From assembly GCA_021297985.1 (NCBI GenBank), contig JAJTGU010000072.1:1-42496 (forward strand): a DNA stretch of 42,496 nucleotides, in the 5' to 3' direction. Positions 4,624 through 24,608 of this stretch are shown here, in pieces. The notes beneath the pieces were generated by a model. It saw only the letters and a program-made list of their open reading frames with translations, was not told where the DNA came from and ran no database searches. Position numbers and translations under genes: made by a program. Source of the DNA: Rubrivivax sp. (GTDB lineage Bacteria > Pseudomonadota > Gammaproteobacteria > Burkholderiales > Burkholderiaceae_C). The stretch's first letter is position 1. Each line of letters starts with the position of its first letter.

Positions 4624-8340
<3,717 letters not shown>

Positions 8341-8353
8341 CGCGGATTCGCTC

Positions 8354-9655: not shown

Positions 9656-9688
9656 GGTGGGTGTGGCCCGTGTTGTCGACCGACGCCG

Positions 9689-10204
9689 TCACTCGATGTT
9701 GGCTGCAGTGCCGGGTGCCGCATGGCGCTCGAAGCCGCCGCCGACGAAGCGCGAGACGGTGGCGTCCAGCATCGCCACCGCCAGGCCGACGCAGCCCAGG
9801 GCCATCGCGCACTGCGGGATCCACAACGCCGTCGCGTCCGAGCCCTGCGAGACATCGTGCGTGGCATGCGACACCCACACCAGGCGCAGCGCGTACCAGG
9901 CGAGCATCGCGCACAGCCCTGTGCCGGCCAGCAGGCACAGGGCCTCCATGCCTCGCCGCATCGGCACGGGCAGCCGGTCCAGCACCAGAGTCACGCGGAT
10001 GTGTTCGCCCCGCTGCAGGGTGCCCGGCAGCGCCAGGAACAGCGCCGCCGCGATGGCGTAGCCGGCATAGGCGTCCAGCCCCCGCAGGCCGAGGCCGAAC
10101 TGCCGGTCGGCAATGCCGGCGACGACACACAGGAACGCTGCCAACAAGGCCGTCGCGGCCAGGACCATCAGGCCCTGGTAGAACAGGTCGAACGTTCGAC
10201 GCAT
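9689..10204 (-). CDS. dctQ: TRAP transporter small permease subunit
   Basis: A 171-residue inner-membrane protein with four predicted spans (LMVLAATALLAAFLCVVAGI, YAIAAALFLALPG, MEALCLLAGTGLCAMLAWYALRLVW, CAMALGCVGLAVAML). It has the DctQ hallmark charged loop LQRGEHIRVTLVLDRLP after the second span. It bridges the periplasmic receptor and the large permease. The gene sits between dctP (61 nt away) and dctM (33 nt away) in the same direction. A long antisense-frame ORF covering it is a shadow. Confidence 0.92.
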   Translation of the reverse strand: MRRTFDLFYQGLMVLAATALLAAFLCVVAGIADRQFGLGLRGLDAYAGYAIAAALFLALPGTLQRGEHIRVTLVLDRLPVPMRRGMEALCLLAGTGLCAMLAWYALRLVWVSHATHDVSQGSDATALWIPQCAMALGCVGLAVAMLDATVSRFVGGGFERHAAPGTAANIE

Positions 10205-10241
10205 GGTGGCGGGCCCGATGGTTGAAGCGCGGGAGATGTCA

Positions 10242-10274
10242 GATCACTTCTTGATCACTTCTTGATCACTTCTT
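10242..10274. repeat. 11-bp tandem repeat, three copies, at the 3' end of dctP
   Basis: GATCACTTCTT is repeated exactly three times (10242-10252, 10253-10263, 10264-10274). Read on the gene's strand it is AAGAAGTGATC; the first copy encodes the last Lys-Lys and the TGA stop of dctP. The other two lie in the 61-nt gap before dctQ. The unit is not a multiple of three. It looks like a slippage-generated duplication. Confidence 0.95.
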
Positions 10275-11240
10275 GTTGTAGGCGTCGAGCACCGCCTTGC
10301 CCTCGGGGCCGGCCTTCTCCAGCCACTCGGCCGTCATGCGGTCGCCGATGGCCTTCAGTTCACCCTTGAGCCTGGCGCTGCTGCGGTCCACCGCCATGCC
10401 ACGCGCACTCAGCTCCTTGAGGTACTCGTCGTCCTTCTGGTCGCTGACCTTCCAGCCCCGCTCGCCGGCGGCAGCGGCCACGCGCACCACGGTGGCCTTG
10501 GTCGCGGCGTCGAGCGCGTCGAAGGCCTTCAGGTTCACGACCACGGCGTTGCGCGGCAGCCAGGCGTTGACGTCGTAGAAGAACTTCACCTGCTCGTAGA
10601 GCTTGCTGTCGACCCCACTGGCGCTGCTGGTCAGGAAGTTGTCGACGCCACCGGTGGCCAGCGCCTGCGGCAGCTCGGCGAGCTGGATCGTCACCGGCTG
10701 CGCGCCGATCAGCTCGGCGATGCGGGTCGTCGCCGGGTTGTAGGCGCGCATCTTGGTGCCCTTCAGGTCGGCGAGGCTGGTCACCGCCTTCTTGGTGTAC
10801 AGCGACTGGCCCGGCCACGGCACGGTGTACAGCAGCTTCATGCCCTGGCTGGCGAGCAGCCTGTCCAGCGCGGGCACCGAGGCCGCATCGAGCCGCTTGG
10901 CGTCGGCATAGGTCGTCGCCAGGAACGGGATGCTGTCGATGCCGAAGAGCGCGTTCTCGTTCGCGGCACCGGACAGGATGAACTCGCCCACAGGCGTCTG
11001 GCCGGTCTGCACCGCGCGCTTGATCTCGTTGGCCTTGAACAGCGAGGCACCGGGGTGTACGGTGACCTTGAGCTTGCCGGCGGTGGCCTTGTCCAGCTCG
11101 TCGGCAAACCACTGAAGGTTCTGCACCTGGAACGTGTTGACGCCATAGCCCGAGGGCAGGTCCCACTTGGTCTGGGCCTGGGCCGCAAACGAGGCCAGAG
11201 CGGCGCCGGCAATGGCGCAGGCGGCGAACAAGGTCTTCAT
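10266..11240 (-). CDS. dctP: TRAP transporter periplasmic solute receptor
   Basis: A 324-residue solute-binding protein with a clear signal peptide (MKTLFAACAIAGAALASFAAQAQ). The ATG at 11240 follows a strong GAAGGAGAA site; the ORF-track start at 11333 is too early. DctP-family features include GKLKVTVHPGASLFKANEIKRAVQTGQ, the GIDSIPFLATTYADAKRL segment and LKGTKMRAYNPATTRIAELIGAQPVTIQLAELPQALATG, which contains the conserved Arg that usually pairs with the substrate carboxylate. It captures the solute in the periplasm for DctQM. The gene follows the DUF1445 gene by 34 nt. Confidence 0.93.
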   Translation of the reverse strand: MKTLFAACAIAGAALASFAAQAQTKWDLPSGYGVNTFQVQNLQWFADELDKATAGKLKVTVHPGASLFKANEIKRAVQTGQTPVGEFILSGAANENALFGIDSIPFLATTYADAKRLDAASVPALDRLLASQGMKLLYTVPWPGQSLYTKKAVTSLADLKGTKMRAYNPATTRIAELIGAQPVTIQLAELPQALATGGVDNFLTSSASGVDSKLYEQVKFFYDVNAWLPRNAVVVNLKAFDALDAATKATVVRVAAAAGERGWKVSDQKDDEYLKELSARGMAVDRSSARLKGELKAIGDRMTAEWLEKAGPEGKAVLDAYNKK

Positions 11241-11274
11241 CGAGGGTTCTCCTTCGGGGTGGTGCCGACGGCGT

Positions 11275-12075
11275 TCAGAAAGCCGCGAGCTGGTGGTTGA
11301 GCAGATCGGTGATGAGCATCTTGCCCGGCGCATGCGTGATGGCCAGCGGCAGCCGGGCGTTGACCAGCGCGGCCTGTGGCGTGACGCCGCAGGCCCAGAA
11401 CACCGGGACCTCGTCCGGCATCACCTCGCAGGCGTCGCCGTAGTCGGGCCGGGTGATGTCCGGGATGCCGATCAGCGCCGGGTCGCCCAGGTGCACCGGT
11501 GCGCCATGCACGGCCGGGTAGCGCGACGTGATCTGGACCGCACGGATGGCGTCGGCGGCGACAAAGGGCCGCATCGTCACCACCAGCGGCCCGGCAAAAG
11601 GCCCGGCCGCGACGGTGTCGATCGAGGTGCGGAACATCGCCACGTTGTCACCGCGCTCGACGTGGCGGATCGCGACGCCCTCGTCCATCAGCGCCTGCTC
11701 GAAGCTGAAGCTGCAACCGAGCACGAAGGCGACGAAGTCGTCCTGCCACAGCGCCGCGATGTCGGTCGTCTCGTCGGCCAGCACGCCGTCGCGCCAGACG
11801 CGGTAGCCCGGCACGTCGTGCCGGATGTCGATGCCCGCAGCCAGCGTCGGCAGCGACGGGTCGCCAGGCTCGCCCACTGCCAGCACCGGGCAGGGCTTGG
11901 GGTTGCGCTGGCAGTAGCGCAGGAAGTCATCCGCATGGGCGGCCGGCAGCACGACGACGTTGCCCTGCACGTGGCGGTCCGCCAGTCCGGAGGTGTGGCC
12001 GACATGCTGGCCCGTGCGGATGGCGGCCCGCCACTCGGCGGGCGATCGGCTTGCAAGAGGGGTTGGGCTCAACAT
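11275..12075 (-). CDS. DUF1445 / D-glutamate cyclase-like putative hydro-lyase (YcsI family)
   Basis: A 266-residue cytoplasmic protein of the DUF1445 family. Recognisable segments are [73 protein letters not shown] and [34 protein letters not shown]. The mammalian DUF1445 protein DGLUCY converts D-glutamate to 5-oxo-D-proline. Bacillus ycsI lies next to the PxpABC oxoprolinase genes. Here it shares an operon with a TRAP carrier and an oxoprolinase, so a ring-forming or ring-handling step on D-glutamate/5-oxoproline is plausible but not proven. The start is ATG at 12075 (MLSPTP), not the long ORF-track start, which lies inside the LysR gene. Confidence 0.88.
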
Positions 12076-12125
12076 GGGGCGGATTCTTCGGGCCCCGGGG
12101 CCGTTGCGGCAAACGCAAAGTTTTT

Positions 12126-13061
12126 CTATGGCTTGATCGGTTTTTTCGATTTCAGGGAAGACCCGATCCGGGCAGACCCGAGGCCTGCGCCCTGCGCCGC
12201 GAGCACCAAGGGCACGACGCTGCCGGCTGCCGAACTGGCCGGGTCGTCGCGCCAGGACAGGTGGATCGGCAGCGGCGCCAGCGTCGCCGTGCAGCGGCAG
12301 GCCACCAGCCCCTGGCTGGCCGTCAGCCGAGCCACTGCCGCCGCGGGCAGCGTCGCGACACCGAAGCCCTGCTCGACCAGCTGGGCCATCGCCGAGATGC
12401 TCGAGATCGTGTGCACCCTGGGCGACTCCACGCCCTCGCGGCGGCACAGGTCGAGCAGCGCCACATGCGGCTGCGAGCCGCGCTGGAAGGTCAGCAGCTC
12501 GTTCTCAGCCGCCAGTTGCGCCAGCGTGAAACGGCGCCGGGCGTGGCGCTGGGCATGGCCGGCAAACACCATCGGCATCGGCGCGAGCGCTCGGGTCTGG
12601 ATCCCGTCGCCCGCGCCCGGCAACGCGCACAGCACCAGATCGGCCGCACCGCGGCGCAGGTGGTCCTGCAGCACGGGCGTTGTTTCAACCGACAACGCGA
12701 GCTCGAGCGCCGGATGAGCCTGCCGCAGCTCCTGCAGCCAGGCCACGAGCCAGGAATGCAGCACCGACTCGATGACGCCGATGCGCAGGCTCGTCGCCGA
12801 CACCGTGCCGGCGCCGAACTCGGCCTTGATCTCGCGCTGCAGGTGCAGCAGCCGCTCGGCCTGGCGAAAGAAGCGCGTGCCCGCCGCGGTGAGCCGGAAC
12901 TGCTTGTCGCGCCGGTCCAGCAGCAGCACGCCGAGTTCCTCTTCCAGCGACGCGATGCGGCTGGACAGCGCGGACTGCGTGATGAACAGCTTCTCCGCCG
13001 CCCGCGTCACGCTCTTGAGCGTGACCGCCCAGTGGAAGGCTTCGACGAATCTCAGGTTCAT
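12126..13061 (-). CDS. LysR-family transcriptional regulator
   Basis: A 311-residue LysR regulator. The N-terminal winged helix-turn-helix is [51 protein letters not shown]. The effector domain (about 90-300) begins [14 protein letters not shown]. The start at 13061 is chosen because it places the helix-turn-helix at the usual position; the track start adds 12 unlikely residues. It is co-directional with, and 50 nt upstream of, the DUF1445 gene, rather than divergent as is common for LysR. It may head the same transcript and control the TRAP/oxoprolinase genes. The effector is unknown, perhaps an acidic amino acid or its lactam. Confidence 0.92.
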
Positions 13062-13097
13062 GGGCGGGCGAGCATAGCGAGCGCCCGACCCGTGCAA

Positions 13098-13129
13098 CGC
13101 TGTCGGACCGCACGATGGGGGCGACAGCG
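13098..13129. promoter_or_regulatory. Inverted repeat upstream of the LysR gene
   Basis: CGCTGTCG (13098-13105) and CGACAGCG (13122-13129) are perfect 8-bp inverted arms with a 16-nt spacer, in the 91-nt gap between the tctC-like stop and the lysR start. It could be an intergenic hairpin that ends the tctC transcript (no U-run follows) or an operator for the regulator. Both readings are inferences. Confidence 0.45.
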
Positions 13130-13152
13130 CTACGTTCGACGGGTAGGCAGCG

Positions 13153-14184
13153 TCATTCCACGCGAAGGTTCAACTGCCGAACCAAACCACCCCAGCGCGC
13201 CACCTCCCTGCGGTTGTGCGCAGCAAACGCCTCGGGCGTGCCGCCCAGCACTGTGGCGCCCGTCTGTTCCAGCGCACGCTTCACCTCCGGCAGCGCGATC
13301 ACCTTGTTCAGTGCCGCGTTCAGTCGCTGCACCAGTGCAGTCGGTAGTCCTGGTGGGCCGTAGACGCCAAACCAGCCGCTGGCTTCAAAACCGCGCAGTT
13401 CGGGCACACCGCTTTCGCCCACTGTAGGCACGTTCAGCAGCTGCGAACTGCGCACCGCCGAAGTGACAGCCAATGCACGTGCGCGGCCATCCGCCACCGG
13501 ACCACGCGACACCACCGCGGTGTCGAACATCAGGCCCACTCGCCCGGCCAGGAAGTCGGGCAGGCCCTGTGCGCTGCTGCGATACGGGATGTGGACGCTG
13601 TGCGTGCCGGTTGCGGCCTTGAAGCTCTCTGCGACCAGGTGCGAGAGGGTTCCGTTGCCCGAACTCGCATAGTCCCAGCGCCCGGGCTCGCGCCGCAACA
13701 GAGCCACCAGCTCGACCAGCGTCGTGGCCGGCACCGAAGGGTGCACCATCACCACGTGCGGCACGCTGCACAACAGGATGATCGGCGTGAAGTCGCGCAG
13801 CGGGTCATAGGGCGGATTGGGGTAGAGGCTGGGTGCGATGGCGTGGTTGCTCACCGTGCCCCAGGCCAGCGTCAGGCCGTCGGGTGTGGCACGCGCCACC
13901 TCGGCAGCCCCCATCAAGCCACCCGCGCCGGGCTTGTTGTCGATGACGATGTCCTGGCCCAGCTCGCGCTGCAATGCCTCCATGATGGGCCGCGCCAGCA
14001 GGTCACTGGTCGCGCCCGCCGAGAACGGAATCACCAAGCGGACACGGCCGCCCTGTGCCCTCGCGGGCACTGCGACGGTGGGCAGCGCCAGCGCTACGGC
14101 AGTGCACTTCAGAGTGTTGCGCAGACATGTGCGCCGCTCAGGATCGGGCTGAGGGCGCTGCTGCGAACCCGGGGTGCTTGACAT
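13153..14184 (-). CDS. Bug/TctC-family periplasmic solute receptor
   Basis: A 343-residue receptor of the tripartite tricarboxylate transporter (Bug) family. The ATG at 14184 (MSSTPGSQQ) follows a strong AGAGGAGAAA site. An export signal ends near ALPTVAVPARAQGG. Family motifs are RLVIPFSAGATSDLLARPI, VIDNKPGAGGLMGAAEVARATPDGLTL, FTPIILL and PDFLAGRVGLMFD. No TctA/TctB membrane partners are in the window, so it is an orphan receptor, as is common in Burkholderiales. It lies between the heme operon and the LysR/oxoprolinase unit; its substrate is unknown. Confidence 0.92.
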   Translation of the reverse strand: MSSTPGSQQRPQPDPERRTCLRNTLKCTAVALALPTVAVPARAQGGRVRLVIPFSAGATSDLLARPIMEALQRELGQDIVIDNKPGAGGLMGAAEVARATPDGLTLAWGTVSNHAIAPSLYPNPPYDPLRDFTPIILLCSVPHVVMVHPSVPATTLVELVALLRREPGRWDYASSGNGTLSHLVAESFKAATGTHSVHIPYRSSAQGLPDFLAGRVGLMFDTAVVSRGPVADGRARALAVTSAVRSSQLLNVPTVGESGVPELRGFEASGWFGVYGPPGLPTALVQRLNAALNKVIALPEVKRALEQTGATVLGGTPEAFAAHNRREVARWGGLVRQLNLRVE

Positions 14185-14250
14185 GAAGTTTCTCCTCTTT
14201 CGAGTGGTGACTGTGTTTGCAGCCGCTTCGACATGCATCGGGCGGATGGG

Positions 14251-15237
14251 TTAGACGCGTGCAGGGGCGGGTGTCGTGAAGGCCTTGCAAGGGTCGTCAC
14301 GAGCTGCGGCAGGCGTAGTCCATACGATGTCGTAGAGCGTGTGCTGGCGCTCGGGAGTCGACGCTGGCTCATCGAACCCGATCGTGAGCACATGTGCGCG
14401 GGGCAGCCGCCGACTCAGCAAGGCCGGTACACCGTAGTCGCGCCGCACGTGGCCGTTTCCAGCCAGCAGGATCACCGGCCGCAGGCCGGGCGTCGACGGT
14501 GAGAGCTTCAGCTGCTCCATGAGGGAGTGCGCCATCGCGGCGTCTCGGCCTTGCTGGGCCGCCACCATGCCCGGCATTCGGCTGGCGCTCAGGTGCCCAC
14601 AGTGGCCCTGCATCAGGTCGTGCTCCAGCGCGGCGCGCGCATTGCTGGTCAAGGGTGCAGCGGCGATCCAAGGTACCAGTTCGGCCGGCAAGACATCCGC
14701 ACCCTCGCGCGCCAGCCGTCGCGCTGCGTCGCGTTCGAGGTTGCCGCCGCGCAGCGGCATGCCGGCGCGGGCGATGGCGGCAAACAGCGGTTCGTGCAAG
14801 GGCCAGCGCCAGCCCTTGATGTCGAAGCCGCTGGCCTGCAGCGCCGCGCGCAGCGCGTCGCCTGTCATGCCCGTCGCCAGCGCGGGCGCTGAACCGCGCG
14901 GCAGGTGCTCGACCACCACGGGGGTGGGTGCGCCCAATGCGGCGAGCAGTGCTGCACGGCGCGCATGGTGATGCGGGTTGTCGTGCAACTCGCCCAGCAG
15001 CACGATCTCGGCGTCGCGCATCCTGCGGGCCACGTCCGCTGGCGACAGTGTCACGCCGGTTACGGTGTCGACGATGCGATCCCCGGTCTTTGCCACCTTG
15101 CTCGTGCAGCCGGCGAATGCAGCAGCTGACATCGCGAGCCAGGACCGCCGCGTGCAGCGCAACGCAAGCGGGCGCAGTTGCTGGGTGGCGGCCAATGCCA
15201 CAAAGCGGACGGCGAGCGCCTTCAATAGGATCGTCAT
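14251..15237 (-). CDS. ChaN-like heme-binding lipoprotein
   Basis: A 328-residue protein of the ChaN/Tiki-related family, whose members bind heme and are linked to iron uptake. The key segment is VLLGELHDNPHHHARRAALLAAL, followed by VVVEHLPRG, FDIKGWRWPLHEPLFAAIARAGMPLRGGNL and VILLAGNGHVRRDYGVP. A late hydrophobic stretch after a twin arginine (TRRSWLAMSAAAFAGC) ends in a lipobox-like Cys, suggesting a lipoprotein. The ATG overlaps the stop of the 95-aa membrane-protein gene as ATGA. It is the last gene of the heme operon and is consistent with a surface or periplasmic heme-handling role. Confidence 0.88.
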   Translation of the reverse strand: MTILLKALAVRFVALAATQQLRPLALRCTRRSWLAMSAAAFAGCTSKVAKTGDRIVDTVTGVTLSPADVARRMRDAEIVLLGELHDNPHHHARRAALLAALGAPTPVVVEHLPRGSAPALATGMTGDALRAALQASGFDIKGWRWPLHEPLFAAIARAGMPLRGGNLERDAARRLAREGADVLPAELVPWIAAAPLTSNARAALEHDLMQGHCGHLSASRMPGMVAAQQGRDAAMAHSLMEQLKLSPSTPGLRPVILLAGNGHVRRDYGVPALLSRRLPRAHVLTIGFDEPASTPERQHTLYDIVWTTPAAARDDPCKAFTTPAPARV

Positions 15238-15521
15238 CGGCGATGCACCTTGCTGTCAGAGGCAAGAGAAGGGGATGGCAAGTCAGATGCTGATGGCACT
15301 GGCACCCACCAAAACACCAGCGCCGACAGTGTCGCAACAAGCGCCATGACTGCGGCCGTGTGCGTTTGGTTGCGACGATCGGCTTGGCGTCGGTATTCCG
15401 CCTGTGTCGGTACGCCCGTGACCCGCGGAGGGCGGGTGGGGTCAGCATCCCCATCGACACCTTCCAAGCGGCCACCTGAACAACGGACTCTCGCGCGGTC
15501 GATGGCTTTAGCCCGGCGCAT
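15234..15521 (-). CDS. Small single-span membrane protein of unknown function in the heme operon
   Basis: A 95-residue unrecognised protein. The start at 15521 (MRRAKAIDRARVRC) has an AAGGGAG site 6 nt upstream, located within the end of the DUF2325 gene. The stop TGA overlaps the ChaN ATG (ATGA). The N-terminal 60 residues are charged and include EYRRQADRRNQTHT, followed by one membrane span (AAVMALVATLSALVFWWVPV) and a short Ser-rich tail. The site and overlaps on both sides argue for a real gene although no family is recognised. The topology suggests a cytoplasmic N-terminus anchored by a C-terminal helix. Confidence 0.7.
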   Translation of the reverse strand: MRRAKAIDRARVRCSGGRLEGVDGDADPTRPPRVTGVPTQAEYRRQADRRNQTHTAAVMALVATLSALVFWWVPVPSASDLPSPSLASDSKVHRR

Positions 15522-16692
15522 GCTCGGCTCCCTTTGCAAGTGCCAACGCCCTGTCCAACCGGGAAAGGCTGGGCCGGTCCAGATAAACGCAGGGTGTACC
15601 GGTGCGATCGCAGTGACGCTTCACCCGGTGATAGGCCTCGTGGTTGATGCACCCAGCCTGGCAGATGACGACATCGGCGCGGCCCAGGCGTGCATCCAGC
15701 GAATGCGCGCTGTCTTCAATGCCACCGTCGTGGTGTTCGAAGCGACCACCCAGTTTCTCGATCCGCCCGCGGTAGCGCGCCACAGCATGCTGGATTCCGC
15801 CCACGCAAAGCACACGCTGGCCAGCCACAGCCAACTGGGCCGATGGCATTGCGGCAGGCGCAGGCGCTGTGGCCTCTACGGACATCCGGTCTGGGGCAGG
15901 ATCGCTCGCACGGGCGCGAGGGCCGTCCTCGGGCCGCTCAACTCGGCGATGGACTGGCGCCGGAGCGACCGTCGCTTGGGCACCAAGCTGCAGCCGCGCC
16001 ACTTCGCCCTGCAGCCGGGCGATTTCCAGCTGGGCCTGTCGCAGCATCGCCGCCGAACGCCGGTGCTGCGCAGTCAAGCGCGACTGCAGGTCCTCGGCAT
16101 GCCGGCGGGTCTGTTGATCCTTGGCTGCAGTCTGCTGCTGGGCCATCGTCAGAACGACGCTCCGGCGTGCATGTGCGAACGCCCAGGCGCGAGCCTCGTA
16201 CAGCAAGTCCGATTGCACGGTCTCGCCCAGCGCATGGGTCAACACGGCCCACAACACCGCGGGTACGCCGGCGGGCGGGCTGTCTTCGGCGAGGGCGCAG
16301 GCCCAGGTTGCTCGCAACGCGGTTTCGTCCTTCACTGCGGTCACGTTGCGCAAAGCCGGGGCGTGCTTGGCGTCGAGCTGCTTGTGCATGGCCTCTGACA
16401 GAGGGTTGCGGGTCGCCAGGGCGTGCACAGCGCTGTACAGCACATCCGCGTCTCGTCCCCGCAGCAGGCACCGGCCCTTGTGCAGCCGCCCCATCGTGCG
16501 TGCGACCTCGCGCCGAAGCGTTTCGGTCGTGAAGCTCAGTGCCAGCAGCAGTTCGTGGGCCTGGGTGGGTAGCTGCCAAAGGCGGCGTCGCTGGCTGCCT
16601 TGTGCGGAGTTCCCAGCGATCCGTGTGCCGGTTGAAACGTCTGGCGCCGCATCCGGGCAAACGCGGCCGAGAGGCAGATGCGCCGCTGTCAT
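15508..16692 (-). CDS. DUF2325 protein with central coiled coil
   Basis: A 394-residue protein; ATG at 16692 with AAGGTGA upstream. Residues 1-180 are a helical region (LPTQAHELLLALSFTTETLRREVARTMGRLHKGRC), 183-238 a predicted coiled coil (LQSRLTAQHRRSAAMLRQAQLEIARLQGEVARL), 240-290 a Pro/Ala linker and 292-380 a DUF2325 domain (VLCVGGIQHAVARYRGRIEKLGGRFEHHDGG ... DVVICQAGCINHEAYHRVKRHC). Cys296, His320/321, Cys344, Cys348 and His351 could bind metal or heme. Function is not established. The start overlaps the stop of the 128-aa gene by one base (TGATG). Its place in the heme operon suggests an iron- or heme-linked role, by inference. Confidence 0.85.
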   Translation of the reverse strand: MTAAHLPLGRVCPDAAPDVSTGTRIAGNSAQGSQRRRLWQLPTQAHELLLALSFTTETLRREVARTMGRLHKGRCLLRGRDADVLYSAVHALATRNPLSEAMHKQLDAKHAPALRNVTAVKDETALRATWACALAEDSPPAGVPAVLWAVLTHALGETVQSDLLYEARAWAFAHARRSVVLTMAQQQTAAKDQQTRRHAEDLQSRLTAQHRRSAAMLRQAQLEIARLQGEVARLQLGAQATVAPAPVHRRVERPEDGPRARASDPAPDRMSVEATAPAPAAMPSAQLAVAGQRVLCVGGIQHAVARYRGRIEKLGGRFEHHDGGIEDSAHSLDARLGRADVVICQAGCINHEAYHRVKRHCDRTGTPCVYLDRPSLSRLDRALALAKGAEHAPG

Positions 16693-17078
16693 CAGCTCAC
16701 CTTGGAGGGCAGACCGAGTTGCTCGCCGACACACTGGACTCGCGCTTGCAGCTGTGCAGGCGTCTGGGCATTGTGACGAGGGGTCCCTTTCCACAAGCTC
16801 GTCAGGCGCGCCAGCGGCCATGCCGTCTGCTCCAGGCAAGCGGCGCGCCACGGCCAGGGCAGTGCCTCGTCGGCTGCTGTTTGCAGCAGGACCGCCAGCG
16901 TGCGGCGCTGGATGCCGTCCTCGTTGTGAGGCTGCTGCCGCGACAGGCGACGACCGAACTGGATGTAGAGATGAAGCGCGCCCAGCCCTTGCGGGTTGTA
17001 GGCACAGCGCACGCCCAAGCCGATCCGGTCCCAGCGCATTTCAAGCACCGATGGCACCAAGCTGTCCGCGGGATTCAT
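16692..17078 (-). CDS. 128-aa protein of unknown function in the heme operon
   Basis: The sequence MNPADSLVPSVLEMRWDRIGLGVRCAYNPQGLGALHLYIQFGRR is unrecognised. No signal peptide or membrane span is visible, and it has a Trp/Arg-rich middle (WPWRAACLEQTAWPLARLTSLWKG). The ATG overlaps the stop of a 25-aa ORF (ATGA) and its own stop overlaps the DUF2325 start (TGATG). This coupling is the main evidence that it is real. It is always between tonB and DUF2325 in this window; whether that is general needs a neighbourhood comparison. A fusion with the 25-aa ORF by frameshift is another possibility. Confidence 0.7.
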   Translation of the reverse strand: MNPADSLVPSVLEMRWDRIGLGVRCAYNPQGLGALHLYIQFGRRLSRQQPHNEDGIQRRTLAVLLQTAADEALPWPWRAACLEQTAWPLARLTSLWKGTPRHNAQTPAQLQARVQCVGEQLGLPSKVS

Positions 17079-17152
17079 GTGGCCCGGACTCCATCAGCCC
17101 GCACCCGCGCGAGCGCGGCGAAGCTGGAATTGAAGTCTGTTGATTCCTGCAT
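17075..17152 (-). CDS. Possible 25-aa leader ORF before the 128-aa gene
   Basis: MQESTDFNSSFAALARVRADGVRAT is preceded by AAGGAG with a 9-nt spacer and ends in a TGA that overlaps the next ATG. It lies in the 96-nt gap after tonB, and its ribosome-binding site probably serves the downstream gene by coupling. It may be a small protein, a translational leader, or the true N-terminus of the 128-aa protein separated by a frameshift. Too short to assign. Confidence 0.4.
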   Translation of the reverse strand: MQESTDFNSSFAALARVRADGVRAT

Positions 17153-17174: not shown

Positions 17175-17882
17175 TCAACCCGCCAGCGCAAAGCGCACCG
17201 GAAATTCGACCCAGCTGTCGATGGCCTGGCCGTCTTGGGTGGCTGGGACGAAGCGACACCCTCGGATCTGTTGCAACGCGGCGTCGTCAAACAATCGCCA
17301 GCCACTGCCCGCCAGCAGTTGCACGTCGGCCGGACGCCCTTCGATGTCGACCTTCACGCGCAACAGGACGGCGCCTTCGATGCCCCGCTCGCGCAGCGCG
17401 GCCGGGTGGCGCGCTGGCGGACAGTGACGATGGTCCGCAAGGGCCTGCACCCGCCGCGGGGTTTGCGCCGGAGCGACTTGTGGTGTCGGCGTGGAAAGGG
17501 TGGCCACGGGTTCGGCGGGCGACTCCGCGAACCCAGACGCCACAGGCGGCACTGCAGGCATCGCCTGGGCCACAGCGAGTGTGTCGCCAGCCGTTGGCAG
17601 CAGCCACGGCACCGCAGCTGGATCGGGCAGGGTCACCTGGGATTCAGAGGGCAAACGCCGCGCCGCGGCAGGGCGGGATGTGGGCTCCGTCGCCCGTGGC
17701 CAAGGGTGCGAAGGATGCAGGGTCGCCCAGATGGGCCGCCGCGTGTCGAGCGCAGCAGCCCAGGGGTGGGACGGGAGCCCGGCAGGTCCGGCCGCCAACA
17801 ACATCCAGGCCAGCCAGGCATGGGCCGCACACACCAGCACCAGGGCGGGCGGGTGACGCCGAATGCGGCCCGGCGGCGTCAT
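17175..17882 (-). CDS. tonB: TonB-family energy transducer
   Basis: A 235-residue protein with one N-terminal membrane span ([21 protein letters not shown]), a Pro/Ala-rich periplasmic spacer (about 40-145) and a C-terminal TonB domain (about 155-235: HPAALRERGIEGAVLLRVKVDIEGRPADVQLLAGSGWRLFDDAALQQIRGCRFVPA). It passes proton-motive energy, with ExbB/ExbD encoded elsewhere, to the outer-membrane heme receptor of this operon. Its ATG overlaps the hmuV stop (ATGA). The presence of a dedicated TonB at the end of the transporter genes suits a self-contained heme uptake system. Confidence 0.9.
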   Translation of the reverse strand: MTPPGRIRRHPPALVLVCAAHAWLAWMLLAAGPAGLPSHPWAAALDTRRPIWATLHPSHPWPRATEPTSRPAAARRLPSESQVTLPDPAAVPWLLPTAGDTLAVAQAMPAVPPVASGFAESPAEPVATLSTPTPQVAPAQTPRRVQALADHRHCPPARHPAALRERGIEGAVLLRVKVDIEGRPADVQLLAGSGWRLFDDAALQQIRGCRFVPATQDGQAIDSWVEFPVRFALAG

Positions 17883-18697
17883 GCCGTGAGTCCCATCACC
17901 GCCGCGGGTGTGTTCGCGCGGCCAGCCAGCACCGCGATGCGACCGTGCTCAATCGCGATGCAACGCAGCCGTATCGCAAACAGCCGCTCCAGTGCCGGTA
18001 CGGCCCCCGATTCCGCCGCCAGATCCCCCACCAGTCGCCCGTTCTGCACCAGCCACAGCCGATCGAACCCCGCCAGCGCCTGGTTCAGGTCGTGCAGCAC
18101 CGCCACCAAGGCATGGTTGCGGGTCCGGGCAAAGTCCCGCAGCGCGTCCATCAGCTCGAACTGCAAACCGGGGTCCAGTGCGGCCAGAGGTTCATCGACC
18201 AGCAACAGGCCTTCATGGACGTCCCACAGCTGGGCCAGCACTCGCGCCAGCTGCACACGGGCCTGCTCTCCGCCGGACAAGGTGTCAAAGCGGCGCCCAG
18301 CGAGATGGCCGGCACAAGCCGCCGACAAGGCTTGCGTCACGATCCTTGCCTGATCGCGGTCGGGCTCGCGCGCGATGCGCCCCAGCGCCACCACCAACTC
18401 CACCGGCATGCCAAAGGCCACCGCGTGCGACTGCGGCAAGACTGCGCGCCGCTGGGCGAGTTGCGGTGCCGGCCACTGCGCCAGCGGCTCGCCCCGCAGC
18501 GCCACTTGCCCACCGTGGGCCCGGCGTTCACCGGCCATCAGGCGCAGCAGCGTCGACTTGCCGGCGCCGCTCGGACCCAGGATGGCGACCCGCTCCCCAG
18601 CGGTCAGTGTCAGGTCGAATGGCCCAAAGCCGCGGCCTGGCAACTGGGTCGTCGCGCCTTGCAACTGCAGCAGAGCCGTGGCCCGCGTCGACCTCAT
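17879..18697 (-). CDS. hmuV: Heme ABC transporter ATP-binding protein
   Basis: A 272-residue ABC ATPase with Walker A GPSGAGKST, Q-loop region AVLPQSHAV, signature LSGGEQARVQLARVLAQL, Walker B LLLVDEPLAALD and a switch His (VLHDLNQAL). It energises heme import through HmuU. The ATG at 18697 (MRSTRATALLQ) overlaps the hmuU stop; the longer ORF in the track (to 19090) is antisense-like low-complexity sequence over hmuU. The weak central AAFGMPVELVVALGR segment is typical of FecE/HmuV proteins. Confidence 0.93.
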   Translation of the reverse strand: MRSTRATALLQLQGATTQLPGRGFGPFDLTLTAGERVAILGPSGAGKSTLLRLMAGERRAHGGQVALRGEPLAQWPAPQLAQRRAVLPQSHAVAFGMPVELVVALGRIAREPDRDQARIVTQALSAACAGHLAGRRFDTLSGGEQARVQLARVLAQLWDVHEGLLLVDEPLAALDPGLQFELMDALRDFARTRNHALVAVLHDLNQALAGFDRLWLVQNGRLVGDLAAESGAVPALERLFAIRLRCIAIEHGRIAVLAGRANTPAAVMGLTA

Positions 18698-19767
18698 GCA
18701 TGGCCCCCTTGCTGACGGGCCATCGTGCGCAGCATCAACAGGAACATCGGCGCGCCGATCAAGGCGGTGAAGATGCCGACCGGGATCTCGGCCGGGATGG
18801 CGACCGTGCGCGCCACCGTGTCGGCCACCACCAGCAGCAGCGCGCCGGCGGCCATCGCCAGCGGCAGCACCCGGCGCTGGTCGCCCCGGGCCAGCCCGCG
18901 CACCAGATGCGGCGCCATCAGGCCGATGAAGCCGATCAGCCCGCACCAGGCCACGGCCAGCGCGCACAGCACCGCCACCACCACGATCAGGCGCATGCGC
19001 AGGCCGGCCACGTCCACGCCCACATGTGCGGCTGCCGCTTCTCCCAGCGCCAGTGCGTTGAGTGCATGGGCCAGCCGGCGCGATTGCCACAGCGCTGCAG
19101 CCAAGGCCACAGCGAGCACGGCCACGACCGCCCAGGTGGCGCCGGCGATGGAGCCCAGCGTCCAGAAGGTGAGACTGCGCAGTTGCTCGTCAGTGGCCAG
19201 GTAGGTGCACAGTCCCACCAGAGCGCCGGCCAGCGCGTTGAGTGCCAGGCCGGTGAGCAGCAGGCCGGCGACCGAGCCCGGCGTGAGCCAGCGCGCCAAC
19301 CGTTCCAGCCCGAAGCACACGGCCAGGGCGCCGACAAACGCCGAGGCTGGCAAGACCCACACGCGCCAGGCCAAGGGCACCGCAGCGGCCGATGCGGCAA
19401 ACACGGTGAGCACCAGCGCCACCGCGCACACGGCGCCGCTGGTCACGCCCAGCAGGCCGGGGTCGGCCAAAGGATTGCGGAACAGGCCCTGCGTGAGCGC
19501 TCCGGCCAGCCCCAGGGCGGCGCCCACGCAGGCCGCCAGCAGGGCACGTGGCAGCCGCAGTTCCCACAACACGTAGGCGCCGGCGGTGGCGGGTGCATCG
19601 CCTGCCCAGGCCCACCAGTCATGGGCCGACACGGGCACGGCACCCAGTTGCACGGCAACGGCCAGCGCCAGCAGCAGGGCGAGCACCAGCGCAGGCCCCG
19701 CCGCGAGCGTGACGGCACGTCGCGGCATCACCGCGCCGGCCGCGTCGGTGGCGGTGGCGGTGTTCAT
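18694..19767 (-). CDS. hmuU: Heme ABC transporter permease, FecCD family
   Basis: A 357-residue protein with about nine to ten membrane helices. FecCD landmarks are WELRLPRALLAACVGAALGLAGALTQGLFRNPLADPGLLGVTSGA, LAHALNALALGEAAAAHVGVDVAGLR and IGFIGLMAPHLVRGLARGDQRRVLPLAMAAGALLLVVADTVAR, the coupling helix region that docks the ATPase. It forms the inner-membrane heme channel with HmuV. It overlaps hmuT upstream and hmuV downstream by 4 nt each (ATGA), which argues for stoichiometric expression. Confidence 0.94.
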   Translation of the reverse strand: MNTATATDAAGAVMPRRAVTLAAGPALVLALLLALAVAVQLGAVPVSAHDWWAWAGDAPATAGAYVLWELRLPRALLAACVGAALGLAGALTQGLFRNPLADPGLLGVTSGAVCAVALVLTVFAASAAAVPLAWRVWVLPASAFVGALAVCFGLERLARWLTPGSVAGLLLTGLALNALAGALVGLCTYLATDEQLRSLTFWTLGSIAGATWAVVAVLAVALAAALWQSRRLAHALNALALGEAAAAHVGVDVAGLRMRLIVVVAVLCALAVAWCGLIGFIGLMAPHLVRGLARGDQRRVLPLAMAAGALLLVVADTVARTVAIPAEIPVGIFTALIGAPMFLLMLRTMARQQGGHA

Positions 19768-20636
19768 GCGGCCCTGCCGTGCAGCGCGTCGGCCAGCGCC
19801 ACCACGGCGTGCGGCAGGCGCGGGCCGAAGCCCAGAAGGAACAGCGCTTCCAGCGCCACGACTCGCCGCGCCCGGCCCGCAGGCGTGTGCGCCAGGCCCG
19901 GCGCCTTGAGCAGGCCGTCGATGCCGCCGGCGGCCTGCAGGCCCTGTTCGGTGGCCAGGATCACGTCGGGCGCGGCCGCTATGGCGGCTTCGGGCGTCAG
20001 CGGCTTGTAGCCGTCGACATGGCCCAGCACGTTGACGGTGCCGGCGTAGCGCAGCATCGCGTCGGCGGCCGTGCCGCTGCCTGACACCCGCACCTGTGCC
20101 ATGCTGTGCGACAGCACGAACAGCACACGCGGGGCCGGTTTGCCCGTGGCCGCGCGCTTCGCGGTCTGGTCTTGCACCTGAGCCCAGCGTTGCTGCAGTC
20201 CGGCAACCAGCGCGCGGCCCGCCTCGACCCGGCCACTCAGTTCCGCCAGCCGCTGCGTCCGGGCGACGACGCCTTCAAACCGGTGGTCCGCGTCCAGCAT
20301 CGCCAAGGGCACGCGTGCCGATTCGATCTGCCGCAGCACGGCCGGTGGCCCGGCCTCTTGCGAGGCCACCACCAGCGTGGGGCGCAGCGACAGCACGCCT
20401 TCGGCCGACAGCGCACGGGCGTAGCCCACGCTGGGCAACTGCCGCGCCGCGTCGGGGAACAGCGAGGTGGTGTCGGCGCCCACCAGGTCACCTTGTGCGC
20501 CCAATGCGTACAGTGTCTCGGTCAGCGCACCGCCGACACTGACGATGCGCCGCGCCGACGTGGCCCACGCGGCCGGTACGGCCCACACGGCTCCCGAGCC
20601 GATCAGCCAGGCGCGGCGCGTGGTCGCGAACGTCAC
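19764..20636 (-). CDS. hmuT: Periplasmic heme-binding protein
   Basis: A 290-residue substrate-binding protein of the TroA/BtuF fold. GTG at 20636 overlaps the hmuS TGA (GTGA); this start gives a signal with a twin arginine (MTFATTRRAWLIGSGAVWAVPAAWA), possibly Tat-directed. The longer ORF-track start is antisense to hmuS. Family segments are RIVSVGGALTETLYALGAQGDLVGADTTSLFP, LPSVGYARALSAEGVLSLRPTLVVAS and PDVILATEQGLQAAGGIDGLLKAPGLAHTPAGRARRVVALE. It carries heme from the receptor to HmuUV. Confidence 0.93.
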   Translation of the reverse strand: MTFATTRRAWLIGSGAVWAVPAAWATSARRIVSVGGALTETLYALGAQGDLVGADTTSLFPDAARQLPSVGYARALSAEGVLSLRPTLVVASQEAGPPAVLRQIESARVPLAMLDADHRFEGVVARTQRLAELSGRVEAGRALVAGLQQRWAQVQDQTAKRAATGKPAPRVLFVLSHSMAQVRVSGSGTAADAMLRYAGTVNVLGHVDGYKPLTPEAAIAAAPDVILATEQGLQAAGGIDGLLKAPGLAHTPAGRARRVVALEALFLLGFGPRLPHAVVALADALHGRAA

Positions 20637-21754
20637 GGCAGGCACGGCGACTCCTCGAAGTCCGCGCGGTCGCCCACCAGGCCATCGATCAGCTCGCGCC
20701 AGGCGCACAGCTCGGGGCGGCCGGGCTTGCGCTCGCCGAATAGCATGGCGATGGTCTCGCCCTGTGCGTCGAACAGCTCCAGCGACGTCACCAGGCCGTC
20801 GCTGGTGGGCTTTCGCACCAGCCACGCGGAAGCGATGTGGTCTTCGCGCAGATGCAGGTTGAAACCCGGATCCAGCACGTTCAGCCAAGGGCCCATCACC
20901 ACGACCTTGTTCACTGGGCCGGTGTGGATCTGGATCATCCCGGGGTTGCCGACAAACACCATGATCGGCGTGCCGGTGCTGGCTGCGCCCGACAACACCT
21001 GCTGCGCGCAGGCGGCGTCCACTGGGCGCACGAAACGCGGTTCGGCCAGGCGCAGCGCCTGTGTGCGCGTGACGCCGTGCGTGCGCAGGAGGCCGAAGAA
21101 CTCGTGCGTGTCGCGCATCGAGGCCCAGGCGTGGTGGAACGCCGCGACATCGATGTCGGCGTCAGGCTTCTGCGCGGCTGGCACCTGTGGCGCAGTGGGT
21201 TCAAGTCCGGGCGCGCCCTCCGCGTCCTCGAAGTCCACCACCAGCCGATCCCAGGCCGCCAGGTCGGTCGCAGGCTTGACGAACACCTTGTGCACCGCCG
21301 TGCCGCTGGCGTCGAAGAACTGCAGGCTGCGCTGCACGCCCTTGTCGCGGGACTCATCCACCGCAAAGCCGTGCGCCCAGCGGCTGTAGAACACGCGCAG
21401 GTCGATGTCTCCACCCAGCGCCAGGCCCATTTCGCGGCCGGCCGGGCCGTTCGCGCTGATGTGGCGGTAAGTGCCGGTCTTCTCGTGCACGCAGGATGCG
21501 TTGCGTGTCAGCGCCATCACGGGGCCCACGGGTTCGAGCGCTGCGATCACGCGGGGCCATTCGGGGCGCAAGCGCCGCGCCCGCAGGCCATGCAGCCGTG
21601 GACTGGCATTCACATGCGCAGCGATCAGCTCGCCTTCGCTGACGCCCAGCTGCGCAGCGATGTCACGGTGGCGCGATGCACCGGCGCGGCGCGCCGTCTG
21701 GTACGCCTCGCGCAGGTGTTCACAGGGATCGGCGGCGATGTCGAGCGTGCTCAT
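20633..21754 (-). CDS. hmuS: Hemin-degrading/heme-trafficking factor HmuS (HemS family)
   Basis: A 373-residue cytoplasmic protein built of two HemS-type repeats, each around 170 residues: one starts near LREAYQTARRAGASRHRDIAAQLGVSEGELIAAHV and the second near FHHAWASMRDTHEFFGLLRTHGVTRTQALRLA. HemS family proteins accept imported heme and hold or degrade it to release iron. An AGAGGAA site precedes the ATG. It is 12 nt downstream of the receptor gene and overlaps hmuT. The slightly long length compared with enteric HemS (about 345 aa) comes from an inter-repeat linker (PGLEPTAPQVPAAQKPDAD). Confidence 0.93.
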   Translation of the reverse strand: MSTLDIAADPCEHLREAYQTARRAGASRHRDIAAQLGVSEGELIAAHVNASPRLHGLRARRLRPEWPRVIAALEPVGPVMALTRNASCVHEKTGTYRHISANGPAGREMGLALGGDIDLRVFYSRWAHGFAVDESRDKGVQRSLQFFDASGTAVHKVFVKPATDLAAWDRLVVDFEDAEGAPGLEPTAPQVPAAQKPDADIDVAAFHHAWASMRDTHEFFGLLRTHGVTRTQALRLAEPRFVRPVDAACAQQVLSGAASTGTPIMVFVGNPGMIQIHTGPVNKVVVMGPWLNVLDPGFNLHLREDHIASAWLVRKPTSDGLVTSLELFDAQGETIAMLFGERKPGRPELCAWRELIDGLVGDRADFEESPCLP

Positions 21755-21766
21755 GGCGGGTTCCTC

Positions 21767-24016
21767 TCAAAAGTCGTGGCGCAGCGTCAGCTGCAGATGG
21801 CGGCCGGGGGCCGTGAAGGCGTCCTTGACGGTGCTGGTGTCGGGCACACCACGCACGTCGCTCCAGCGCCAGTAGGTGGCGTCGGTGACGTTGTTCAGGT
21901 TGGCGATGAGCGTCCAGCGTGGGCTTGCCTGCCAGCGCGCGCTGAAGTCGAGCACGGTGTAGCCCACGGGCGCGAAGGCAGCGGGCGTGGCGGCGCGGAT
22001 GCGGTCGCGCGTTTTGGCTTGCGCGTGCAGCACATCGGCGCGCAGGTCCCAGGCGCCGGCCCGGTAGCGCAGGCCCAGCGCCGTGCGGGCGGGCTCCACG
22101 CTGTCCAGCGGCTCGGCCACGCCGTTGCGGGTGCTGGTGCCGCGGGTCAGTGCGGTGGCGGCGTTCAGGCTCCAGGCGGGCGACAGGCGCCACTCGCCGC
22201 GCAGTTCCACGCCCCGAATGCGCGCTTGGGCCAGGTTGATGAACTGGAAGAGGGTCGGATCGGCTGGCGTGCCGGCGCCGCTGACGGCTTCCTGGCTGAT
22301 GAAGTCGCGGTAGCGGTTGTCGTAGGCGGCCACCTGCCAGTGCCAGCCCCCGGCCTTGCCGCGCAGGCCGACTTCCAGGCTTTGTGCGGTCTCGGGCTGC
22401 AGGTTCGGATTGCCCACGCTGCGGTAGCCCGAGGCCACGTTGGTGAAGCCGTTGTTCACCTGGCCGGGCGTCGGCGCGCGGAAGCCGCGCGACCATTGGG
22501 CGTAGGGGGCAAAGGCATCGGCCAAGCGCCACACGGCACCCAAGCGCGGCGTGACGGCGCTGTCCGACAGGCTGACGATGGCGCCGCCACCGTAGCCCTC
22601 TGCCGACGGGTCGAGCATGAAGCGGTCGTAGCGAAGGCCTGGAATCAGCGTCAGGCGGCCCGGCAATCCGGCCAGCCCGCCCAGTTCGATCTCGCTCTGC
22701 AGGTAGGCACCGGCCAGGGTGTAGTCGGTATCGGGGAAGGGCTTGGCCGGAAAGGTCTCGCCAAAGGGTGGCGGCGCGCTCGGGTTGGGTGTGCCGTCGC
22801 GCACCGAGGTGATGCGCGTACGGCTGGCATCGATGCCGTAGCTCAGGCGCTGCGGCAGCGTGCCCGACAGCGAGGTTTCGAACTGTGTGGACAGACCCAC
22901 CACCTTCTCGCGGTAGCGGCTGGTGCGGGTGCGGTCGGCAGCGGTGTTGCGGTCTTCCATCGCGAACTGGCGCGTGTCGGCGTCCTGCACGTACGCCCGG
23001 GATTCGGCCTTCTGGAACCACAGGCCGTTGAGGTCGTCGTAGCGGTGCTCGGCCGAAACGCGGGCGCGATGCACTCGGTCGCTGGCGTCCAGGTCGATCA
23101 CGGCGGTGGCGGGCAGCACGGCGGGCGGGGCGGGTGGCAGGGCGCGGGCCGAGAACACATCGGTCTCGGCACGTCGTTGCATGGCCTCCACGGTGGCCCC
23201 GAAGCGGTGGGCTGGCACCGGGCTGAAGAAGACCTTGCCCAGCAGCACCTGCTGTCGGTAATCCAGCGGGTTGGGTGCGGTGCGGCTGCTGTTCAGCGCT
23301 TCATGGGTGCCCTGGCTGCGCGTCTCGTGACCTTGGCGCTGGCTCAGCAGCAGCAGCGCCTGCCAGGACCCCTGGCGCACAGCGGCAGCGGCCGTCAGCG
23401 CCACCGAGTCGTCCACCTGCGTGCCGGCAAGGCGAACAAACCCGCCCAGCGTCTGGCCACGCTTCAGCACGTCGTCAGGGTCCAGCGTGCGCAGGCTCAA
23501 GGCGCCGGCCAGGCCGTCGCTGCCAAAGGACGTCGAAGCCGGGCCGCGCAGCACTTCGGCGGCCTGCGTGGCCTCCAGCGCCAGGTAGTCGGCACGGCCG
23601 GTCGCGAAGGCGCCGAACGAAAAGCTCCCGGGCACACGGATGCCATCCACCAGCATCAGCACCTGGTTGCCTTCCAGCCCGCGGATGTTGATACCTTCGT
23701 TGCCGGCGCGCCCGGTCGAGGCCCCGGCCAGGCCGAAGCGGCCCGGCGCATGGCGCACCGTCAGGTCGACCTGGTTGCGGAACAGGTCCTTGATGTCACG
23801 CGCGCCGGCGGCTTCGATGTCGGCGGCCGGCACCACGGTGACGGTGGCCGGCACCTCGTCGACTCGCCGGTCGGTGCGCGTTGCGGTGTTGGTGACGGCC
23901 GGAAGCGGTGTGGCCGCGATGGCGTCTGTTGGCGTGGAGGACTGGGCCAGCGTTCGCGTGGGGCCAAGGCCCCAGGCGACCACCAACGCCAGCGCGAAGG
24001 GAGTCTTGCGCAGCAA
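21767..24016 (-). CDS. TonB-dependent outer-membrane heme receptor
   Basis: A 749-residue receptor with signal peptide MLRKTPFALALVVAWGLGPTRTLAQ, a plug domain (about 45-175, INIRGLEGNQVLMLVDGIRVPG) and a beta-barrel ending in the outer-membrane signature LQLTLRHDF. The heme-receptor motifs FRAP (512-515) and NPNL (536-539) are present. The usual His between them is absent, but Tyr531 lies there and His89 is in the plug (VRHAPGRFG), resembling the His/Tyr pair of Pseudomonas PhuR. It follows hemP by 82 nt. Heme, free or protein-bound, is the likely ligand. Confidence 0.93.
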   Translation of the reverse strand: MLRKTPFALALVVAWGLGPTRTLAQSSTPTDAIAATPLPAVTNTATRTDRRVDEVPATVTVVPAADIEAAGARDIKDLFRNQVDLTVRHAPGRFGLAGASTGRAGNEGINIRGLEGNQVLMLVDGIRVPGSFSFGAFATGRADYLALEATQAAEVLRGPASTSFGSDGLAGALSLRTLDPDDVLKRGQTLGGFVRLAGTQVDDSVALTAAAAVRQGSWQALLLLSQRQGHETRSQGTHEALNSSRTAPNPLDYRQQVLLGKVFFSPVPAHRFGATVEAMQRRAETDVFSARALPPAPPAVLPATAVIDLDASDRVHRARVSAEHRYDDLNGLWFQKAESRAYVQDADTRQFAMEDRNTAADRTRTSRYREKVVGLSTQFETSLSGTLPQRLSYGIDASRTRITSVRDGTPNPSAPPPFGETFPAKPFPDTDYTLAGAYLQSEIELGGLAGLPGRLTLIPGLRYDRFMLDPSAEGYGGGAIVSLSDSAVTPRLGAVWRLADAFAPYAQWSRGFRAPTPGQVNNGFTNVASGYRSVGNPNLQPETAQSLEVGLRGKAGGWHWQVAAYDNRYRDFISQEAVSGAGTPADPTLFQFINLAQARIRGVELRGEWRLSPAWSLNAATALTRGTSTRNGVAEPLDSVEPARTALGLRYRAGAWDLRADVLHAQAKTRDRIRAATPAAFAPVGYTVLDFSARWQASPRWTLIANLNNVTDATYWRWSDVRGVPDTSTVKDAFTAPGRHLQLTLRHDF

Positions 24017-24098: not shown

Positions 24099-24323
24099 CT
24101 ATTTGGTGAGGATCAGCTTGCCCAGGGCGGTCAGGCGCAGCCGATAGACCGCATGCCCGTGTTCGATTTCGATCTCATGGGCCGCGCCGAAAAGCTCGGC
24201 ACTGCGCCAACGTCGTGCCGAGGCCAAACGGGCGTGAGCCGCCGCGGTCGGGTCGGCGACATGGCCCAGCGCCGGCAGTCCCGCCGAAGCCGGTTTGCCG
24301 CCGAGACGAAGAAGCTTGGCCAT
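24099..24323 (-). CDS. hemP: Hemin uptake protein HemP
   Basis: A 74-residue protein whose C-terminus has the HemP signature EIEIEHGHAVYRLRLTALGKLILTK. HemP homologues are small proteins found next to TonB-dependent heme receptors; in some Burkholderia the homologue acts as an activator of heme receptor expression. It begins 3 nt after the bfd stop and precedes the heme receptor by 82 nt, so bfd-hemP-receptor probably share the Fur-controlled promoter. The basic N-terminal 45 residues are variable in the family. Confidence 0.92.
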   Translation of the reverse strand: MAKLLRLGGKPASAGLPALGHVADPTAAAHARLASARRWRSAELFGAAHEIEIEHGHAVYRLRLTALGKLILTK

Positions 24324-24326
24324 GGG

Positions 24327-24578
24327 TCAGAGTGCGGTGGAGGCTCGCGGGACCAAGCGTTGGACGGCCGCAATGGCAACAACCGGATCGATGCGATCGG
24401 TCTTGGCGCATGCCGGCCGGACATGGCGATCAAAGGTTTCCCGGGCCACGTCATGGCACTTGCCACAGCACGTCGCAACGGCGAGCTTGAACTGCAACTC
24501 GTCGAAGCTGGCACAGCCGCACTGTGCCGCGTGGGCAATGTCGCGGTCAGAGATCCGGTGGCAGACGCAAACAATCAT
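24327..24578 (-). CDS. bfd: Bacterioferritin-associated ferredoxin
   Basis: An 83-residue [2Fe-2S] protein. Cys4, Cys6 (MIVCVCHRIS), Cys38 and Cys41 (CCGKC) match the C-X-C...C-X2-C cluster pattern of Bfd. Bfd delivers electrons to the heme of bacterioferritin to mobilise stored iron when iron is scarce. The track start at 24821 is wrong; ATG at 24578 is the only start giving a normal Bfd. It lies 12 nt from a 19-bp Fur-box-like palindrome and has no clear ribosome-binding site. bfr lies upstream, hemP downstream. Confidence 0.93.
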   Translation of the reverse strand: MIVCVCHRISDRDIAHAAQCGCASFDELQFKLAVATCCGKCHDVARETFDRHVRPACAKTDRIDPVVAIAAVQRLVPRASTAL

Positions 24579-24589
24579 GACGCTACTGT

Positions 24590-24608
24590 AATGCGAACGA
24601 TTCGCATT
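24590..24608. promoter_or_regulatory. Fur-box-like operator before bfd
   Basis: AATGCGAA-CGA-TTCGCATT is a perfect 8-bp inverted repeat with a 3-bp centre, 19 bp in all, the size and layout of a Fur box and close to betaproteobacterial examples. On the minus strand it sits between TTGCAA and TACAGT (17-bp spacing), a plausible weak -35/-10 pair, so Fur-Fe would block the promoter of bfd and the downstream heme genes. No binding evidence can be seen here. Confidence 0.75.

Follow-up and report, generated by a model that had tools for sequence, protein, structure and literature searches.

The window analysed here, a 42,496-nucleotide stretch of Rubrivivax sp. DNA (contig JAJTGU010000072.1), contains a heme-uptake operon that ends in a block of tightly joined genes encoding a 25-amino-acid peptide (orf25), a 128-amino-acid protein, a DUF2325 protein, a 95-amino-acid protein (orf95) and ChaN. 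In all likelihood, this block belongs to a Fur-linked iron-starvation operon. The gene identities, the joins between the genes, the Fur-box-like promoter, the homology of the 128-amino-acid protein to FagA and the membership of the DUF2325 protein in an iron-linked branch of its family are computed results.

All operon genes are on the minus strand and form a unit of 10.3 kb, bfd-hemP-hmuRSTUV-tonB-orf25-fagA-DUF2325-orf95-chaN, with the following features:

24590..24608, strand unassigned: Fur-box-like palindrome AATGCGAACGATTCGCATT, 12 bp 5' of bfd, matching 17/18 positions of a degenerate Fur consensus.
24327..24578, minus strand: Bfd-like ferredoxin, 83 amino acids, likely the first gene of the unit (reading of the sequence; Bfd genes near DUF2325 elsewhere fall into the same neighbour family).
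24099..24323, minus strand: HemP/HmuP-like small protein, 74 amino acids (PRK10183, 27.7 bits, below cut-off; C-terminus YRLRLTALGKLILTK resembles the HemP family).
21767..24016, minus strand: HmuR, TonB-dependent heme receptor (TIGR01786 and TIGR01785, above cut-off with 363 and 336 bits, respectively).
20633..21754, minus strand: HmuS/HemS (PF05171, 287 bits).
19764..20636, minus strand: HmuT, periplasmic binding protein (PF01497, 105 bits).
18694..19767, minus strand: HmuU, permease of the FecCD type (PF01032, 271 bits).
17879..18697, minus strand: HmuV, ATPase (top NCBIfam match the heme ABC ATPase NF010068, 220 bits, under the equivalog cut-off of 261).
17175..17882, minus strand: TonB (PF03544, 62 bits).
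17075..17152, minus strand: orf25, 25 amino acids, putative coupling leader (Shine-Dalgarno motif AAGGAG; ATGA overlap with fagA).
16692..17078, minus strand: FagA-family protein, 128 amino acids, predicted all-alpha (hhalign, synteny and AlphaFold2 model).
15508..16692, minus strand: DUF2325 protein, 394 amino acids, iron-linked branch (PF10087 at residues 293-383, 83.7 bits, cut-off 33.6).
15234..15521, minus strand: orf95, 95 amino acids, one hydrophobic stretch, an orphan of doubtful coding status (G+C content at third codon positions, GC3, 0.59; no credible homolog).
14251..15237, minus strand: heme-binding protein of the ChaN family, with which the unit ends (PF04187, 140.5 bits).

The genes of the block, their coordinates and lengths had been given in a first-pass annotation of the sequence, and they hold, as do the joins: ATGA between orf25 and fagA, TGATG between fagA and the DUF2325 gene, a 14-bp overlap between the DUF2325 gene and orf95, and ATGA between orf95 and chaN. 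Overlaps in the operon span 1-14 bp, and a gap of 22 bp separates tonB from orf25, which, judged by its sequence, looks like a coupling leader. The heme operon that had been placed upstream of the block is borne out by profile matches to HmuS, HmuT, HmuU, HmuV, TonB and, above cut-off, HmuR, so that receptor, HemS, binding protein, permease, ATPase and TonB make up a genuine heme-uptake set in the window. The unit extends further than that annotation had drawn it, as a HemP-like gene, a Bfd-like gene and the Fur-box-like site lie upstream of hmuR. A vitamin B12 uptake operon was considered, the FecCD permease matching BtuC best, but was ruled out, as the receptor, HemS and the HemP-like gene are of the heme type.

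Fur boxes were sought at many loci. The consensus used was a degenerate palindrome of the Burkholderiales type, AATG(C/A)(G/T)AATNATT(A/C)(T/G)CATT, and a match of at least 15/18 in an upstream gap was counted as a Fur box. It replaced, together with controls, the classic 19-bp Fur consensus, which was matched at just 12/19 positions, no better than in shuffled sequences. In the 42.5-kb window, the palindrome 5' of bfd is the sole site of at least 13/18, and it coincides with the lowest G+C content between 14 and 25.5 kb. It is located nine genes upstream of the DUF2325 gene, and its link to that gene depends on one transcript. A Fur box was present upstream of 70 of the 75 iron-branch DUF2325 loci, compared with 4/77 control gaps at a distance of over seven genes and 1/750 Markov shuffles of the same gaps. 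When the nearest gap alone was counted, 44/75 loci had a box, and a box was still found at 25 of the 27 iron-branch loci that lack a recognised iron gene within three genes. Loci of a second branch, linked to the molybdenum-type regulator gene modE, had none (0/10, anywhere in the fetched stretch). Two long-type loci from other families (L164 and L169), which the tree groups with the ModE branch although they lack ModE, have a Fur box adjoining the gene.

The 128-amino-acid protein, which the first-pass annotation had left as an unknown, is instead FagA-like. Searches against Pfam and NCBIfam gave no family for it. A profile made from the window protein and three relatives retrieved homologs in 31 named genomes, mostly of Pseudomonas, and in the inspected Pseudomonas loci the homolog is encoded directly 5' of a class II fumarase gene (fumC), orfX and a superoxide dismutase gene. 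Pfam confirms the fumarase and the dismutase, and orfX encodes a TPR-like protein. Profile-profile alignment with hhalign of the window protein and the Pseudomonas proteins at the fagA position gave a probability of 99.5, an E-value of 2.4e-23 and 31% identity over 86 columns; the motif LLxTAxDxALPWxWRxxCLE is shared. Because of this match and the synteny of its relatives, the protein can be assigned almost with certainty to the FagA family, with the proviso that the name rests on Pseudomonas synteny, FagA of P. aeruginosa itself lying outside the searched collections. The AlphaFold2 model is a compact all-helical fold (mean predicted local distance difference test score 86.7), and comparison with the PDB gave nothing by sequence and, by fold, no match at an E-value of 0.001 or better. 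Lists of Fur regulons have included FagA since the 1990s, and the Fur-box-like site that heads the window unit may be relevant to Fur repression of its fagA. Elsewhere, FagA-like genes were seen amid phage-like genes (L186 and L187, both in genome G247) and next to genes for a TonB receptor or PepSY-like proteins (L183, L184).

The DUF2325 protein of the window consists of a degenerate helical N-domain, a coiled coil at about residues 160-241 and a receiver- or Rossmann-like C-domain that carries a CHHCCHCC set of residues. In the AlphaFold prediction, made with an alignment of five sequences, the N-domain is helical, the coiled coil is 80 residues long and the C-domain is of the parallel alpha/beta type. 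The nearest solved folds are receiver domains, all weak matches, and a sequence search of the PDB returned coiled-coil noise alone. Cys296, Cys344, Cys348 and His351, to which the first-pass annotation had drawn attention, are correctly numbered and belong to a near-invariant set: together with His320, His321, Cys361 and Cys368, they are 97-100% conserved across 68 iron-branch proteins, and the window protein keeps 8/8. Judging from the positions of the strands in the secondary structure, Cys296 (strand 1), His320 and His321 (strand 2), and Cys344, Cys348 and His351 (after strand 3) would share one edge of the sheet. A second signature, CCHCHCHH, is found in the N-domain (C-P-x-I-G-x-C, DYxLH, EC, THPxC, HMLQHQ); at least 6/8 positions are kept in 64/68 iron-branch proteins and 4/8 in two proteins from the genus of the window.

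DUF2325 proteins occur in 108/301 genomes of the family to which the window belongs and in 27/399 genomes spread over the phylum. Some 100 neighbourhoods were fetched and annotated with a purpose-made simple gene caller and our own profiles. An iron or heme gene was present within three genes at 46 of the 71 iron-branch loci of the family sample and at a distance of six to eight genes at 17/71, a contrast that is conservative because the far bin still holds the ends of the same operons. HemP was found within five genes of DUF2325 at 18/71 loci, hmuSTU within six genes at 14/71, Bfr or Bfd within five genes at 12/71 and a ferritin-like gene next door at 5/71; other loci pair DUF2325 with PiuC-TonB-ExbBD, or with nothing recognisable, yet have the Fur box. 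Two loci in named genomes (L132, L133) have the neighbour order DUF2325-FagA-ChaN, without orf95. Outside the family, HemP adjoins DUF2325 at one locus (L173), and four Rhizobiales-like loci have a TonB-DUF2325-90-amino-acid arrangement near HmuS, three of them (L167, L170, L171) with a gene for an ABM (HmuQ-like) monooxygenase.

Some small proteins recur next to DUF2325. A protein of 73-94 amino acids (MIGLHKLAAQNGDGLVPELY) follows the short DUF2325 gene at the Rhizobiales-like loci L167, L168 and L170-L172, near hmu, TonB, ABM monooxygenase and truncated-globin-like genes. At L048, L050, L051, L066, L068 and L069, a protein of 130-170 amino acids with a DUF2325-like CQTGC-SH tail is encoded directly 5' of a full DUF2325 gene, often together with a 107-amino-acid family (fam9, motif ALLAGTLALMTG) that has no known domain. 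A further small protein (fam11, motif CLSVRLExxAFxxL) is located directly 5' of DUF2325, at the usual place of HemP, at L034, L037, L046, L049, L076-L078, L088, L096 and L166.

The coding status of orf95 is doubtful. Its GC3 is 0.59, compared with 0.74-0.88 for tonB, hmu, fagA, DUF2325 and chaN, it matched no family in Pfam or NCBIfam, and no credible homolog was found among 401 genomes. Matches in 196 genomes at E-values of up to 0.1 were discarded as noise, the best foreign one (2e-4) having internal stops. The gene may be real and young or a chance overlap, and it looks like a local oddity. With no homologs and a weak coding signal, the membrane anchor that the first-pass annotation had seen in its product has no support.

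It is proposed that the block forms the distal end of one Fur-controlled operon for iron starvation and heme uptake, and that coupled translation would lead to the joint production of its proteins when iron is low. The DUF2325 protein would form a cytosolic oligomer via its coiled coil, and the Cys and His residues at the C-terminal strand ends of its receiver-like C-domain would bind iron, heme or a ligand derived from iron. We infer such binding, and delivery as well, by which the protein would buffer iron or heme or hand it over between import (HmuV/HmuS) and a Bfr/Bfd store. FagA would be a small helical partner in iron starvation, ChaN would handle heme on the envelope side, and orf95 is probably outside the mechanism. 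Taken as a whole, from the Fur-controlled operon to binding and delivery by DUF2325, this explanation is probable, with considerable reserve. For an iron or heme ligand on the C-domain, the chances appear slightly less than even, and heme specifically is an improbable ligand.

Several points weigh against this explanation. The Fur consensus was fixed after the site in the window had been seen, and the loci compared are related by descent. HemS is absent from 38 of the 64 iron-branch genomes. Two genomes from the same genus as the window have DUF2325 next to Bfr-Bfd and not hmu, and FagA is missing as well as the hmu linkage. The C-domain model is of middling confidence, with weak PDB matches (E-value 0.008). 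Lastly, the window copy is a divergent member of the iron-linked branch: it keeps 1/8 of the N-domain Cys/His positions, and its branch length of 3.93 is ten times the median of 0.37. As the N-domain signature is largely gone and the branch is very long, this DUF2325 protein may have lost or changed its function.

The main rival, itself rather unlikely, is a regulatory role, in which a ligand-sensing, receiver-like domain on a coiled coil would modulate a transporter or transcription in response to the status of iron or, in the ModE-linked branch, molybdate. The receiver-like fold agrees with this, as does the fact that the two branches follow two metal regulators, with Fur boxes in one and ModE neighbours in the other. 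However, no DNA-binding domain was seen in DUF2325, the conserved residues are Cys and His rather than the phospho-acceptor residues of receivers, and dedicated regulator genes (Fur, ModE) exist already.

The first-pass annotation had suggested that the block could be a module, so far undescribed, that senses or handles heme, taken here as specific to heme uptake. One part of this stands: the block is in a heme and iron operon, where the presence of DUF2325 goes beyond chance, as indicated by the near-invariant C-domain Cys/His set of its branch, the Fur boxes and the recurrent hmu, HemP, Bfr and TonB neighbours. The predicted co-occurrence with heme uptake genes is also partly found, HemS and iron-branch DUF2325 occurring together in 26/296 genomes (13.6 expected, p=5e-5), in addition to the hmuSTU and HemP linkages, the HmuQ-like genes of the Rhizobiales-like loci and the flanking of DUF2325 by ChaN and FagA at L132 and L133. 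Nevertheless, the link is broader than heme, because most iron-branch genomes counted above lack HemS and few loci adjoin hmuSTU; loci with ferritin-like, PiuC-TonB-ExbBD or no recognisable partners have the Fur box all the same, and the proposed anchor is an orphan. The large loss of the N-domain Cys/His set also weakens the reading of the window protein as a sensor. A module specific to heme is unlikely, and the safe statement is that the link of DUF2325 is to iron starvation at large, heme being a frequent and recurrent setting.

Quite unlikely is a hitch-hiker in the operon, decaying or drifted in this genome and co-translated without shared function, to which the long branch, the lost N-domain residues and the unlinked same-genus genomes would point, but which is at odds with the open frame and coding GC3 (0.74) of DUF2325, the retention of all eight C-domain Cys/His residues and the recurrence of the same neighbours at L132 and L133.

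An extension of the Fur-linked iron-starvation interpretation is put forward tentatively, as a reading that is less likely than not. DUF2325 would be a metal-homeostasis family that has divided into a Fur/iron and a ModE/molybdenum branch. Members of the former would belong, so far unrecognised, to the core of the Fur regulon in beta-proteobacteria and would bind iron or heme via the receiver-like domain, FagA being a functional partner; the window protein would have exchanged a sensor-like N-domain for coupling to FagA in the operon.

The gene content changes after chaN, which is thus the natural end of the unit. Further 3' (4624-14238, minus strand) are genes for a TctC-type binding protein, a LysR regulator, a D-glutamate-cyclase-like protein, TRAP DctP/DctM and hydantoinase/oxoprolinase, a cluster likely for uptake and use of 5-oxoproline or hydantoin. 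A probable toxin-antitoxin pair, read from the sequence as an AbrB-like antitoxin (73 amino acids) and a PIN-like protein (134 amino acids), is found at 3950-4575 on the plus strand. An Rfam scan of the window gave no match.

Two widespread but uncharacterised families, DUF2325 and FagA, are now tied to one iron-starvation setting. Only four papers in the open-access literature searched name DUF2325, none of them placing it in an hmu operon or a Fur regulon in beta-proteobacteria, and the literature searches found no link of FagA to heme operons or to DUF2325. The iron- and molybdenum-linked branches have distinct Cys/His signatures, and the named residues allow direct tests.

Several known systems resemble the window unit in part. 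It shares with the hmuRSTUV/bhuRSTUV heme uptake operon with HemP/HmuP the receptor, HemS, the binding protein, the permease, the ATPase, TonB and the HemP-like gene in one unit, and differs from it by bfd in front and orf25-fagA-DUF2325-orf95-chaN at the 3' end. In Pseudomonas, the operon fagA-fumC-orfX-sodM is Fur-repressed and induced by iron starvation (PMC3224232, PMC3377617). The product of the first gene of this operon (fagA-fumC-orfX-sodA, sodM) is homologous to the 128-amino-acid protein, and a link to Fur and iron starvation is likewise predicted for the latter; the window fagA, however, has DUF2325 and chaN as companions within a heme operon, without fumC or sodA. Because its neighbours are DUF2325 and chaN and not fumC-orfX-sodA, the window protein is called a FagA-family protein and its setting is not described as a classic fagA operon.

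Among systems with DUF2325, the Rhizobiales-like hmu loci likewise combine HemP, HmuS, TonB and DUF2325, but their short DUF2325 protein (135 amino acids) has no N-domain, and a 90-amino-acid partner and an ABM monooxygenase are present, without FagA. In Campylobacter jejuni, the DUF2325 gene cj1384c is Fur-repressed and has katA and cj1386, a heme-trafficking gene, nearby (PMC4491227, PMC9426514). According to these papers, its product resembles the window protein in the DUF2325 domain and in being Cys-rich, and the gene resembles that of the window in its heme-related neighbourhood and in repression by Fur, which is predicted for the window; the product differs as a short single-domain protein (104 amino acids), without hmu genes or FagA. 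The present results help to explain in what setting cj1384c is so strongly induced. The ModE-linked branch (L100-L104, L107, L174-L177) shares the long architecture with N-domain Cys/His residues, but has the C-domain pattern Y.H.F.C.H.C instead of CHHCCHCC and, in place of a Fur box, ModE-type genes within three genes in every case; it is possibly the molybdenum counterpart of the iron branch.

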